Shown here piece after piece: positions 14,495-48,671 of a stretch of DNA of 64,000 nt (positions are counted from its first letter, which is position 1; each line of letters opens with the position of its first letter). The DNA lies in assembly GCF_030718085.1 (NCBI RefSeq), contig NZ_JAVAJF010000002.1, positions 1 through 64,000 on the forward strand. The letters run 5' to 3'. The stretch is from Marinobacter sp. MDS2 (GTDB taxonomy: Bacteria; Pseudomonadota; Gammaproteobacteria; Pseudomonadales; Oleiphilaceae). The position numbers and the translations under genes are program-made. The notes under the pieces were generated by a model. It worked only from the letters and a program-made list of their open reading frames with translations. It had not been told where the DNA came from and ran no database searches.

Positions 14495-14501
14495 CAGCTC
14501 C

Positions 14502-14850
14502 GAGCTCGCCAGACAGTCGCCGCCGGTTTTACCGGGGGAGGAAAGTCCGGGCTCCATAGGGCAAGGTGCCAGGTAACGCCTGGGCGGCGCGAGTCGACGG
14601 AAAGTGCAACAGAAAATACACCGCCTAAGTGCCTTCGGGCACCGGTAAGGTTGAAATGGTGCGGTAAGAGCGCACCGCGTGACTGGCAACAGTTCACGGC
14701 ATGGTAAACCCCACCTGGAGCAAGACCAAATAGGAATCCGTTGGCGTGGCCCGCGCTGGATTCGGGTAGGTTGCTTGAGGCCTGTGGTGACGCAGGCCCT
14801 AGATGAATGACTGTCCACGACAGAACCCGGCTTATCGGCGAGCTCTTTTT
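14502..14850 (+). ncRNA. rnpB: RNase P RNA (type A)
   Basis: Catalytic RNA that cleaves the 5' leader of tRNA precursors. Conserved blocks are CCAGACAGTCGCCGCC, GAGGAAAGTCCGGGCTCCAT, GGTGCCAGGTAACGCCTGGG, AGTGCAACAGAAA, GGTAAGAGCGCACCG and near the 3' end CTAGATGAATGACTGTCCAC and ACAGAACCCGGCTTATCG. P1 is closed by GAGCTCGCC (14502-14510) with GGCGAGCTC (14837-14845), followed by five T residues that act as terminator. About 345 nt, normal for the class. An antisense reading frame across it is not a gene. Confidence 0.97.
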
Positions 14851-46170: not shown

Positions 46171-46959
46171 ATGTTGCAATACCCACAGATTGATCCGGTC
46201 GCGATCGCGATCGGCCCCCTCAAAATTCATTGGTATGGTCTGACCTATCTGGTCGGCTTTGCGGCCGCTTGGTGGCTGGGGACCATCCGTAGCCGTAAAC
46301 CTTGGTCACCGCTGAAGGAAGAGCAAGTCGGCGATCTGATTTTCTACATGGCACTGGGGGTTATCCTCGGCGGTCGTTTCGGGTACGTGGTGTTCTATAA
46401 CTTCGACGCGTTCATTGCGGATCCGCTTTGGTTGTTGCGGGTTTGGGAAGGCGGCATGGCGTTCCACGGTGGCTTGCTCGGTGTCATGGTCGCCATGGTG
46501 TGGTACGGCCGCAAAACCGGTGCCGGGTTCTGGAAAATCGCCGATTTCGTGGCGCCCTTGGTGCCGGTGGGCTTAGGGGCTGGCCGGGTAGGTAACTTCA
46601 TTAACGGGGAATTGTGGGGTAAGCCCACGGATCTGCCGTGGGGCATGGTGTTCCCTCAGGCGCAAGACGCGCTGGCGCGGCACCCGTCGCAGTTGTATCA
46701 GGTTGCTCTGGAAGGTGTGGCGCTGTTTGCCATTCTATGGTGGTTCTCGGCGAAAGAGCGGCCGAAAATGGCGGTCTCGGGCCTCTTTTTGCTGTGTTAC
46801 GGCGTGTTCCGTTTTCTGGTCGAGTTCGTCCGCTTGCCAGACGCGCACCTAGGGTACCTGGCCTTTGATTGGGTCACCATGGGGCAGGTATTGTCGTTGC
46901 CCATGATCATTGCTGGCGCCGCCTTGATTGCCATTGCTTACCGGAGAAAAACGTCATGA
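46171..46959 (+). CDS. lgt: Prolipoprotein diacylglyceryl transferase
   Basis: Inner-membrane enzyme that attaches diacylglycerol to the lipobox cysteine of prelipoproteins such as LpoA in this window. The 262 residues contain the seven-helix core, [11 protein letters not shown], the HGG motif in MAFHGGLLG, the Lgt signature [20 protein letters not shown] (catalytic Arg and the FINGE segment) and RHPSQLYQ. It overlaps thyA by 4 bp (ATGA), the lgt-thyA pairing seen across gammaproteobacteria. Confidence 0.97.
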
Positions 46960-47795
46960 AAGCTTACCTCGACCTGATGCAAGACGTGGTTGATAACGGA
47001 TTCGATAAAGGCGATCGCACCGGGGTGGGAACCCGTTCGGTGTTTGGCCGGCAGATCCGTTTCAACTTGCAGGAAGGTTTTCCACTGGTGACCACGAAGA
47101 AGGTGCACTTGCGCAGTATCATCTACGAGTTGCTGTGGTTTCTGAAAGGCTCCACCGATAACAATTGGCTGAAAGAACGCAAGGTGTCCATTTGGAACGA
47201 GTGGGCTTTGGAGAATGGCGATCTAGGGCCTATTTACGGTAAGCAGTGGCGTAGCTGGCAGTGCCACGATGGTGGCGTGATTGATCAGATCAGCGAGGTG
47301 ATCGATCAGATTCGCAACAAGCCAAACTCCCGTCGTTTGATCGTTTCAGCTTGGAATCCGGCTGAGTTGCCGGATGAGTCTATTGGTCCGCAGGATAACG
47401 TGCGGGAAGGGCGCATGGCGTTGGCTCCGTGCCACTGTTTGTTCCAGTTTTACGTGGTTGACGGCAAGCTTTCGTGTCAGCTTTATCAGCGCAGTGCGGA
47501 TTTGTTTCTGGGTGTGCCGTTCAATATTGCGTCTTATGCGTTGCTGACGCATATGATTGCTCAGCAGTGTGATCTGGATGTGGGTGAGTTTGTGCATACG
47601 TTTGGCGATTGTCATTTGTATCAGAATCACCTGACTGATGAGATTGTGTTTGAGCAGTTGAAGCGTGAGCCTAGAGCTTTGCCGAAGCTGGTAATCAAGC
47701 GTAAGCCTGATTCGATTTTTGATTACGAGTTGGAAGATTTCGAGTTTGAGGGGTATGAGCCTTATCCTGGAATTAAGGCGCCCATCGCTATTTGA
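46956..47795 (+). CDS. thyA: Thymidylate synthase
   Basis: Methylates dUMP to dTMP using methylenetetrahydrofolate. The catalytic Cys is in [12 protein letters not shown]; other signatures are [48 protein letters not shown] and [12 protein letters not shown]. The length is 279 residues, somewhat above E. coli ThyA (264). The start is the ATG overlapping the lgt stop. Dihydrofolate produced here is recycled by FolA, encoded just beyond the palindromic repeats. Confidence 0.97.
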
Positions 47796-47819
47796 CCTTT
47801 ATCGTGGACTTGGGTGGTG

Positions 47820-47934
47820 GCGGATAAACGGGGCAAACCCTCCAAAAACCGCTCCTTCGGCACGTCCCTGTGACGCTTCTGCTCCGCCATCCATGGCTAC
47901 GCACATTTTTGGAGGGTTTGCCCCGTTTATCCGC
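47820..47934 (-). repeat. Long palindromic repeat element A
   Basis: A perfect 29-bp inverted repeat: arms 47820-47848 and 47906-47934, joined by a 57-nt core. Read on the minus strand, the core starts TGTGCGTAGCCATGGATGGC. Forty of its first 46 bases match the core of element B (48042-48095). The stem has no T tract, so it is not a standard terminator. It begins 24 bp after the thyA stop. No flanking target duplication and no reading frame of credible length are seen. Confidence 0.9.
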
Positions 47935-48012
47935 TTCAGCATCGCGGTATGCATGCGGGGTTCTAGACGTTAAAGCGTTTATTTTGAGAGAAGCCAGCAC
48001 CTAAAGTATTGC

Positions 48013-48124
48013 AGCGAAGGGCGGGGTGTGCTGTTCAAAACTGTGCGGAGCCATGGATGGCGGAGCCCAAGCGCCACATGGATGTGCTCGAGCGTGTTTT
48101 GAACAGCACACCCCGCCCTTTGCT
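48013..48124 (+). repeat. Long palindromic repeat element B
   Basis: Inverted repeat with arms 48017-48041 and 48096-48120 pairing perfectly over 25 bp, extendable to 48013 and 48124 with one mismatch. The 54-nt core (48042-48095) starts TGTGCGGAGCCATGGATGGC and is homologous to that of element A, but on the other strand. Arm sequences of A and B differ at about half of the positions while both stay self-complementary. The element ends 31 bp before folA. The 78 bp between A and B hold nothing I can identify. Confidence 0.9.
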
Positions 48125-48155
48125 AACTCCAAATTCAAATGGGGATTAGACCAAA

Positions 48156-48671
48156 ATGAGAAAAGCACTAATCGTAGCCATGGCCCGAAACCGGGTTATC
48201 GGCCGCAACAATGCGCTGCCTTGGTATTTGCCGGGAGATTTGCGTTATTTCAAAGAAGCCACCATGGGTAAGCCCATTATTATGGGTCGGAAAACCTGGG
48301 ATTCCATCGGTCGGCCGTTGCCGGGCCGGATGAATGTGGTTATTTCCCGAAATCCGGAGTGGGAAGCGCCAGCAGGAACGGTATCAGCTACATCATTGGA
48401 TGCGGCTCTGGTGAAAGCTGAAGCTCAGGCTGAGCTGGATGGGGGTGAAGAGGTGATGATTATTGGTGGTGGGCAGATCTACGCAGAAGCCCTGCCAATG
48501 GTTGATCGGATTTATATCACGCAAGTGCACGCCGAAGTTGACGGGGATGCCTACTTTCCGCAAGTGAACTGGGATGAGTGGGAAGAAATCGGACGCGAAG
48601 ATTTCTCCGCGTCTGACAATAATCCGTACGACTACAGCTTTGTAGTCTACCAGCGTAACCGGTCGAGCTGA
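48156..48671 (+). CDS. folA: Dihydrofolate reductase
   Basis: Reduces dihydrofolate to tetrahydrofolate with NADPH, closing the cycle opened by ThyA. The 171 residues begin with the DHFR pattern MARNRVIGRNNALPWYLPGDL, broken here into VIGRNNALPW and PGDLRYFKEAT. GRKTWDSIGRPLPGR binds NADPH, and EVMIIGGGQIYAEALP is the second cofactor loop. Acidic YDYSFVVYQR closes the fold. No strong Shine-Dalgarno stands before the ATG. Its promoter should lie in or near repeat element B. Confidence 0.96.
   Translation: MRKALIVAMARNRVIGRNNALPWYLPGDLRYFKEATMGKPIIMGRKTWDSIGRPLPGRMNVVISRNPEWEAPAGTVSATSLDAALVKAEAQAELDGGEEVMIIGGGQIYAEALPMVDRIYITQVHAEVDGDAYFPQVNWDEWEEIGREDFSASDNNPYDYSFVVYQRNRSS

Follow-up and report, generated by a model that had tools for sequence, protein, structure and literature searches.

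Two TwoAYGGAY-type elements between thyA and folA of Marinobacter sp. MDS2 belong to a dispersed, high-copy subfamily

The intergenic region between a thyA-type and a folA-type gene of Marinobacter sp. MDS2 carries two long palindromes, elements A and B. In this study, we found that both are members of a known RNA class, TwoAYGGAY (Rfam RF01731), by structure though not by curated score, and that they belong to a dispersed, high-copy subfamily of this class. The distribution of wobble pairs between the two strands indicates that the core strand is very probably selected to fold as a single strand, regardless of the direction of the genes on either side. The RNA class and the proposal that it binds CsrA were known; what looks new here is the organisation and evolution of the copies. 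Positions refer to the window, that is, the whole stretch of 64,000 nucleotides that was analysed.

Elements A and B and the TwoAYGGAY class

A sequence-only reading of the window had described two palindromes with covarying stems at this site, and its observations were borne out. The perfect 29-bp stem of A was recovered by an inverted-repeat search, and the perfect 25-bp stem of B is contained in slightly longer arms (Table 1). Twelve of the 25 inner arm positions differ between A and B, all 12 are compensated (both stems are perfect there), and the cores are homologous, lying as inverted copies that are 87% complementary over 52 nt. The z-scores of RNA folding are -9.5 for B and -11.5 for A, and none of 200 shuffles folds as well; hence, the palindromes are not due to chance. 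The opposite strands fold almost equally well (-10.0 and -10.8), so that energy alone cannot tell which strand matters. The minimum-energy fold shows B without the two hexaloops and A with the first hexaloop only. Neither a sigma-70-like promoter nor a terminator-like site was found within 47700-48260. Elsewhere in the window, the end of a 5S rRNA lies at 1-75 and an RNase P RNA (class A) at 14501-14850.

Table 1. Elements A and B, their parts and their neighbouring genes in the window
Feature	Position	Strand	Basis and remarks
thyA-type gene (thymidylate synthase)	46956..47795	+	ORF list, ORF 46869-47795 from TTG; start 46956 from simple caller; name thyA from the sequence-only reading; upstream neighbour
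3' outer box of A, CACCCAA on minus	47810..47816	-	family consensus
Element A, long-stem TwoAYGGAY-type hairpin	47820..47934	core on -	inverted repeat; RF01731 34.7 bits at 47813-47941 minus; R1 match 47838-47916 minus, 103.5 bits
Element A arms	47820..47848 pairs with 47906..47934		29/29 pairs, 100% complementary
Element A possible third ANGGAN hairpin, CCG-AAGGAG-CGG	47849..47860	-	sequence; no counterpart in B
Element A hairpin 2, CAC-AGGGAC-GUG	47861..47872	-	sequence; covarying stem
Element A hairpin 1, GCC-AUGGAU-GGC	47886..47897	-	consensus of core alignment
Weak 5' outer box of B	48003..48011	+	family consensus about AAGTYTGGG
Element B, long-stem TwoAYGGAY-type hairpin	48013..48124	core on +	inverted repeat; RF01731 32.0 bits at 48007-48130 plus; R1 match 48031-48106 plus, 92.0 bits
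Element B arms	48013..48041 pairs with 48096..48124		29 nt, 97% complementary
Element B hairpin 1, GCC-AUGGAU-GGC	48050..48061	+	consensus of core alignment
Element B hairpin 2, CAC-AUGGAU-GUG	48075..48086	+	sequence; covarying stem
Weak 3' outer box of B	48125..48133	+	family consensus about CACCMAA
folA-type gene (dihydrofolate reductase)	48156..48671	+	ORF list; name folA from the sequence-only reading; downstream neighbour, start 31 nt past B

Both elements match RF01731 by E-value and align over model positions 1 to 168, but their scores fall short of the 43 bits set as the gathering cut-off; a search at that threshold lists neither. The best copy listed from the same genome reached 42.5 bits. 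When this genome and five congeneric genomes were searched, all six matched at E<=0.001 and two passed the cut-off, and the same search gave no match in 14 control genomes. Class-wide, with at most nine candidates scored per genome, 18 of 274 genomes matched at E<=0.001 (13 over the cut-off), from 17 of 222 genera. As in other members of the class, each element has two AYGGAY-type loop hairpins, on a long outer stem with little sequence conservation, in a gammaproteobacterial genome. Beside hairpin 1, a GNA stands opposite a GNA, and these four G/A columns are invariant in 29 cores from the MDS2 genome and 86-90% conserved in an alignment of 121 rows; tandem GAs in one stem have been cited for TwoAYGGAY (PMC4333381). 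Apart from the scores, the elements differ from the class in their loops, which follow ANGGAN (also AGGGAC, as in loop 2 of A, outside strict AYGGAY, and AAGGAC) and are thus slightly wider than AYGGAY. A match of mir-3547 to B lies below its own cut-off and was put down to a long hairpin matching by chance.

TwoAYGGAY was named by Weinberg et al. in 2010, who rated it as probably RNA and probably not cis-regulatory (PMC2864571), unlike Rfam, where the type of RF01731 is Cis-reg. CsrA binding was proposed in 2014 from motif matches (PMC4333381), and a 2025 preprint terms the class relatively unexplored (PMC11661157). The sequence-only reading had mentioned CCATGGATGG elements between genes of other marine gammaproteobacteria, with no described function. 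This was right but incomplete, as the class has a name (RF01731, PMC2864571) and CsrA binding had been proposed (PMC4333381). The accessible parts of the literature bearing the name yielded no tested function. Likewise, no report of copy number, element pairing or arm turnover was found in the TwoAYGGAY/CsrA literature, covered mostly outside subscription journals, and the accessible text on RF01731 (PMC2864571) mentions none of the up to 117 copies, the usual divergent pairing or the arm turnover described below. Element organisation and evolution in Marinobacter look undescribed so far.

Copies, core structure and gene setting

A pattern search of the MDS2 genome (G000) returned 18 exact and 18 one-mismatch sites, of which two one-mismatch sites (C1:214303 and C1:2155665) are absent from later matches to R1, a covariance model built from 29 cores of this genome. 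At E<=1e-5, R1 found about 66 copies in G000 and 72 in G019, a close congeneric species; at E<=1e-6, 13 genomes of the genus held 2 to 117 copies each, and one genome from each of six other genera in the order held 0, 0, 1, 0, 0 and 0. These counts come from at most 150 candidates scored per genome, with rough E-values. The sequence-only reading had proposed such a covariance-model search, expecting that either a lack of further copies or copies with unpaired arms would reduce A and B to a local duplication. The first is excluded by the ~66 copies in G000 and by those found across the genus; as to the second, most copies do pair, but eight of the 138 in G000 and G019 failed an in-register pairing filter, among them the drifted orthologue of B in G019. 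A DNA search with the A/B intergenic region gave matches, at any location, in 120 of 124 genomes of the genus. An exact scan for the core pattern found at least 118 stretches, and 78 of 80 among the matches listed are named Marinobacter. The core pattern was also seen in contigs labelled Halomonas sp. MAG (L222) and Sedimenticola sp. MAG (L281), possibly misbinned.

The site between thyA and folA was compared in 30 genomes of the genus by our own reading of the region. Both A(-) and B(+) are present in 19, G019 among them, B alone in four (one with a remnant of A), and neither element in five; two more show B at a contig edge. The folA-type gene itself was matched in 78 of 81 genomes. In the G019 orthologue of B, the left arm has drifted and shifted, turning six pairs into mismatches and two into G.T. 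A deletion of the spacer in another genome (G096, L111, 1440-1560) has fused half of A to half of B. A local tandem duplication without wider meaning would suit the adjacency and homology of A and B. Its probability is negligible, given the occurrence of the same A(-) B(+) pair in most of the genomes compared, and it is ruled out by the 66 copies genome-wide.

The core was studied in the above alignment of 121 distinct rows, taken from 99 chosen sources. Its pair cells are paired in 97.9% of cases and include 347 double-change cells, compared with 72 in shuffles. Loop 1 reads A121 N G121 G120 A121 N and loop 2 A121 N G120 G121 A119 N. According to our script, ANGGAN occupies both loop places in 131 of the 138 copies of G000 and G019, the loop reported at the second place being that of CCG-AAGGAG-CGG in 27 of them. 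The ANGGAN hexaloops sit directly on stems. Folding energy by itself does not single out hairpin 2. The stem of hairpin 2 covaries (39 double-change cells against 4.7 in shuffles), while the number of its pairs with a double change, two, is not above shuffles. The thermodynamic alternative to hairpin 2, the energy model's choice for A, was rejected with no double changes. The seven exceptions to the two-loop pattern carry an inserted domain in place of the hairpin-2 loop (G000 C1:1034544, L023; G019 C1:622801, 840516, 1335582 and 1336311, C13:4136, C15:95438). This domain is hairpin-rich and roughly 80-90 nt long where alignable, and an Rfam search with one copy gave no family better than E 0.17.

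With genes called by our simple script, 63 of the 66 G000 copies overlap no gene, so that mapping the copies relative to genes, another proposal of the sequence-only reading, places them mostly between genes. Context could be counted for 64 copies, two being without a called 5' neighbour. In tandem contexts, the core points the way of both neighbours in 23 copies and opposite to them in 16; convergent genes flank 17 copies and divergent genes eight. Neighbouring copies less than 500 bp apart have their 5' ends facing each other, in a divergent arrangement, in seven of seven cases in G000 and nine of nine in G019, several of which are orthologous. The same polarity holds for 34 of 34 pairs in a wider set of loci; at least 19 of these are the thyA-folA site, six are G000 pairs counted again and one (L348) comes from beyond the genus. 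Among the class-wide RF01731 matches, four pairs below 500 bp stand outside Marinobacter: those of G398 (two) and G287 (one) are divergent, and that of G219 (C40) is tandem. Two further divergent pairs (L340, L346) add to these. The tandem pair, two weak RF01731 matches 296 nt apart at G219:C40:109-526, shows that divergent pairing is not strict across the class. Upstream of the copies, no strong conserved motif was found beyond a short box, and neither the family consensus nor 47700-48260 shows a conserved promoter in the gap of the pairs.

Strand asymmetry and arm turnover

When a transition changes only one side of a stem pair, it leaves G.T on one strand and A.C on the opposite one. Read on the core strand, the arms show G.T and A.C in a ratio of 49:1 in G000 (65 of 66 copies) and 51:4 in G019 (65 of 72 copies, mostly orthologues of the G000 set). 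The ratio is 42:5 (p 2.5e-8) in 96 elements of other genomes, a set chosen for good pairing (19 of 25) that includes mutual orthologues. Confined to the inner 18 pairs, the counts are 15:0 in G000 and 20:2 in G019, and among 15 copies antisense to both neighbours they are 9:1. Substitutions in the flanks, read on the same strand as a control, have no bias (C/T 2451, A/G 2471). Because G.T is tolerated on the core strand and hardly on the other, we consider it very probable that selection acts on the core strand in its folded, single-stranded form, irrespective of gene direction. RNA would be the simplest reading of such a strand; folded single-stranded DNA is a possible one, since it would likewise tolerate G.T.

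The asymmetry bears on two other explanations. A DNA cruciform that is bound or cut in double-stranded form, and whose arms stay paired through template switching alone, would fit the nearly perfect arms, the many transversion-type compensated changes, and the inversion and fold-back events described below. It predicts G.T and A.C in equal numbers, whereas the ratios are strongly skewed with flanks free of mutational strand bias; the cruciform is thus excluded as the whole explanation, and we give it very little credence. An element at mRNA 3' ends, acting on the genes next to it as a terminator or a 3' stabiliser, would account for the excess of convergent over divergent contexts and for the very stable stems. 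It is nonetheless improbable. Downstream of the 3' arm, T runs within 33 nt are at most 4 long, a length seen in three of 64 copies, and many tandem-context copies are antisense, with the wobble signature on the core strand there too. An intrinsic terminator was rejected for want of a long T run after the stem and of a terminator-like site in 47700-48260. The sequence-only reading had left the choice between a cruciform, an RNA hairpin and palindrome repair by template switching. The core-strand excess of G.T favours the RNA hairpin over the double-stranded cruciform, which cannot give it, and template switching finds support as the mutational route in one core inversion, one fold-back derivative and the paired rewriting of arms.

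Between the two close species, this turnover of the arms spans everything from no change to full replacement. Among the 138 copies of G000 and G019, no two non-orthologous arms are alike, with at most 21 of 27 positions matching. Orthologous pairs between the two genomes were kept at a summed BLAST score of at least 500, which gave 58 pairs and left 22 copies unpaired. Some unpaired copies lie at matching places in opposite orientation, and differential loss of pair members may lie behind some of these cases. Out of 27 arm positions, 22 orthologous pairs show 0-1 differences (none at all in 13), 19 show 3-9 and 17 show 11-19, compared with a mean of 16 (sd 2.5) for unrelated arms. Three of the 17 most different pairs involve a copy with the inserted domain (against a normal or another such copy) and one is the drifted B; the pairing filter keeps 53 of the 58 pairs, including 13 highly different ones. 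Flank identity is about 91% in each of these three groups (rho 0.0007, p 0.996). Arm change is thus unrelated to flank divergence and the arms do not follow the flank clock, on which ground clock-like compensatory evolution was rejected. At the loci with the most change, both arms have been rewritten together, sometimes with replacement of the core type and the outer boxes. In orthologues of low divergence, 24 of the 52 compensated changes are of transversion type, which one G.U step cannot produce, and the other 28 are of the type reached through G.U.

Two loci show further rearrangements. One core is inverted between mostly retained arms (G000 C1:1868936 compared with G019 C1:503318). At G000:C1:967480-967640 (L162), hairpin 1 is gone and a perfect 37-bp hairpin carries a single ATGGAT loop on the core strand, the G019 counterpart being whole; no other stem of at least 17 bp that encloses a 3-10 nt loop occurs in the scanned stretches of G000 and G019. 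According to PMC8794818, template switching predicts paired rewriting and loop inversion, and the inverted core and the one-loop derivative agree with this route. For hairpins formed in this way, the predicted footprints are perfect stems, several paired changes and an inverted loop (PMC8794818). The inverted loops described there are typically four nucleotides long, unlike the core of about 60 nt that is inverted here, in one case, within a repeated family; loop inversion with compensatory change is, moreover, extremely rare in that study (PMC8794818). Allelic import from other lineages is a possible source of the replacement of whole segments. Gene conversion or recent transposition from another copy was rejected, as no donor arms occur among the 138 copies of the two genomes.

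A candidate CsrA decoy and its alternatives

The likeliest function of the elements, which we hold to be somewhat more probable than not, is that of dispersed CsrA decoys, with A and B as two copies whose core strand very probably acts as a folded single strand. An ANGGAX hexaloop on a stem is the high-affinity consensus of CsrA/RsmE (PMC4005645). An RNA transcribed from either side would present two predicted high-affinity CsrA sites, and the ~66 copies together would form a scattered decoy, which may also mark nearby transcripts locally. The long arms would hold the loops away from flanking RNA, leaving arm sequence free while pairing is kept. At the DNA level, the arms would be kept paired and occasionally rewritten, partly by template switching during replication, a process that could also flip the core in place and leave one-loop derivatives.

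The Rfam clan CL00106, of Csr-Rsm protein binding, includes CsrC of Yersinia, and other CsrB/CsrC/RsmX/RsmY/RsmZ families presumably sit in it as well. These known decoys are one to few strongly expressed sRNAs with many sites. The elements resemble them in their ANGGA loops on stems and differ in being dozens of dispersed units with two (sometimes perhaps three) sites each, with no promoter or terminator found at A/B. No match of RF00166 or RF00195 over the cut-off was found in six genomes of the genus, and membership of the RsmZ/RsmY families was rejected on weak matches only, control genomes giving weak matches too. A csrA gene is present in 19 of 19 genomes searched, including ones with 0-8 element copies, so that CsrA does not explain copy number. 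In addition, as 16 of the 39 tandem-context copies are antisense, many copies would need antisense or other transcription.

A different view is that the elements are selfish or structural DNA, a REP/REPIN-like or MITE-like palindrome that spreads between genes as a single-stranded hairpin recognised by a transposase, without RNA function. The strong variation in copy number across 13 genomes, the intergenic position without a clear gene orientation, and the absence of both elements from the thyA-folA site in five of 30 genomes all fit such DNA, of which G.T tolerance is expected too if a single strand folds. REP, REPIN and BIME sequences are short intergenic palindromes of high copy number, often in inverted pairs. 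The elements share these traits, and differ from them in the conserved core on a locus-unique stem, the lack of correlation with a Y1 transposase, and the single pair polarity within the genus. The absence of alike non-orthologous arms means that recent copy-and-paste is not visible, and the near-invariant A-GGA with its free N suits CsrA better than a transposase end. Mobilisation by Y1/RAYT was rejected as there is no correspondence between PF01797 and copy number across 13 genomes: the family has no match in G001, G005, G008 and G009, with 55-86 copies. In G004 (L065, L073), there are 22 Y1-transposase matches and few elements (6). Altogether, we regard a purely selfish or structural DNA element as unlikely, and the CsrA decoy as the better account.

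More speculatively, the elements may form a dispersed CsrA-titration layer in many gammaproteobacteria, with up to more than 100 two-site RNA hairpins per genome, often in divergent pairs between genes. The private stems would be rewritten by template switching, so that no long repeats are shared and no recombination ensues while the loops stay fixed. We put this forward tentatively and hold it to be doubtful as a whole; if true, the free identity and fixed pairing of the stems would make each element a natural record of template switching.

The strand-specific wobble provides evidence, from sequence comparison only, that TwoAYGGAY functions in folded, single-stranded form with a single polarity, independent of gene direction, and sets the class apart from DNA palindromes such as REPs. 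The unchanged and the wholly rewritten, still paired arms at orthologous loci also provide a natural setting in which to test whether template switching gives rise to compensatory changes. If CsrA binds these elements, this global regulator would meet about 130 extra predicted sites in the genome of Marinobacter sp. MDS2, a number set by the copy number of the elements.
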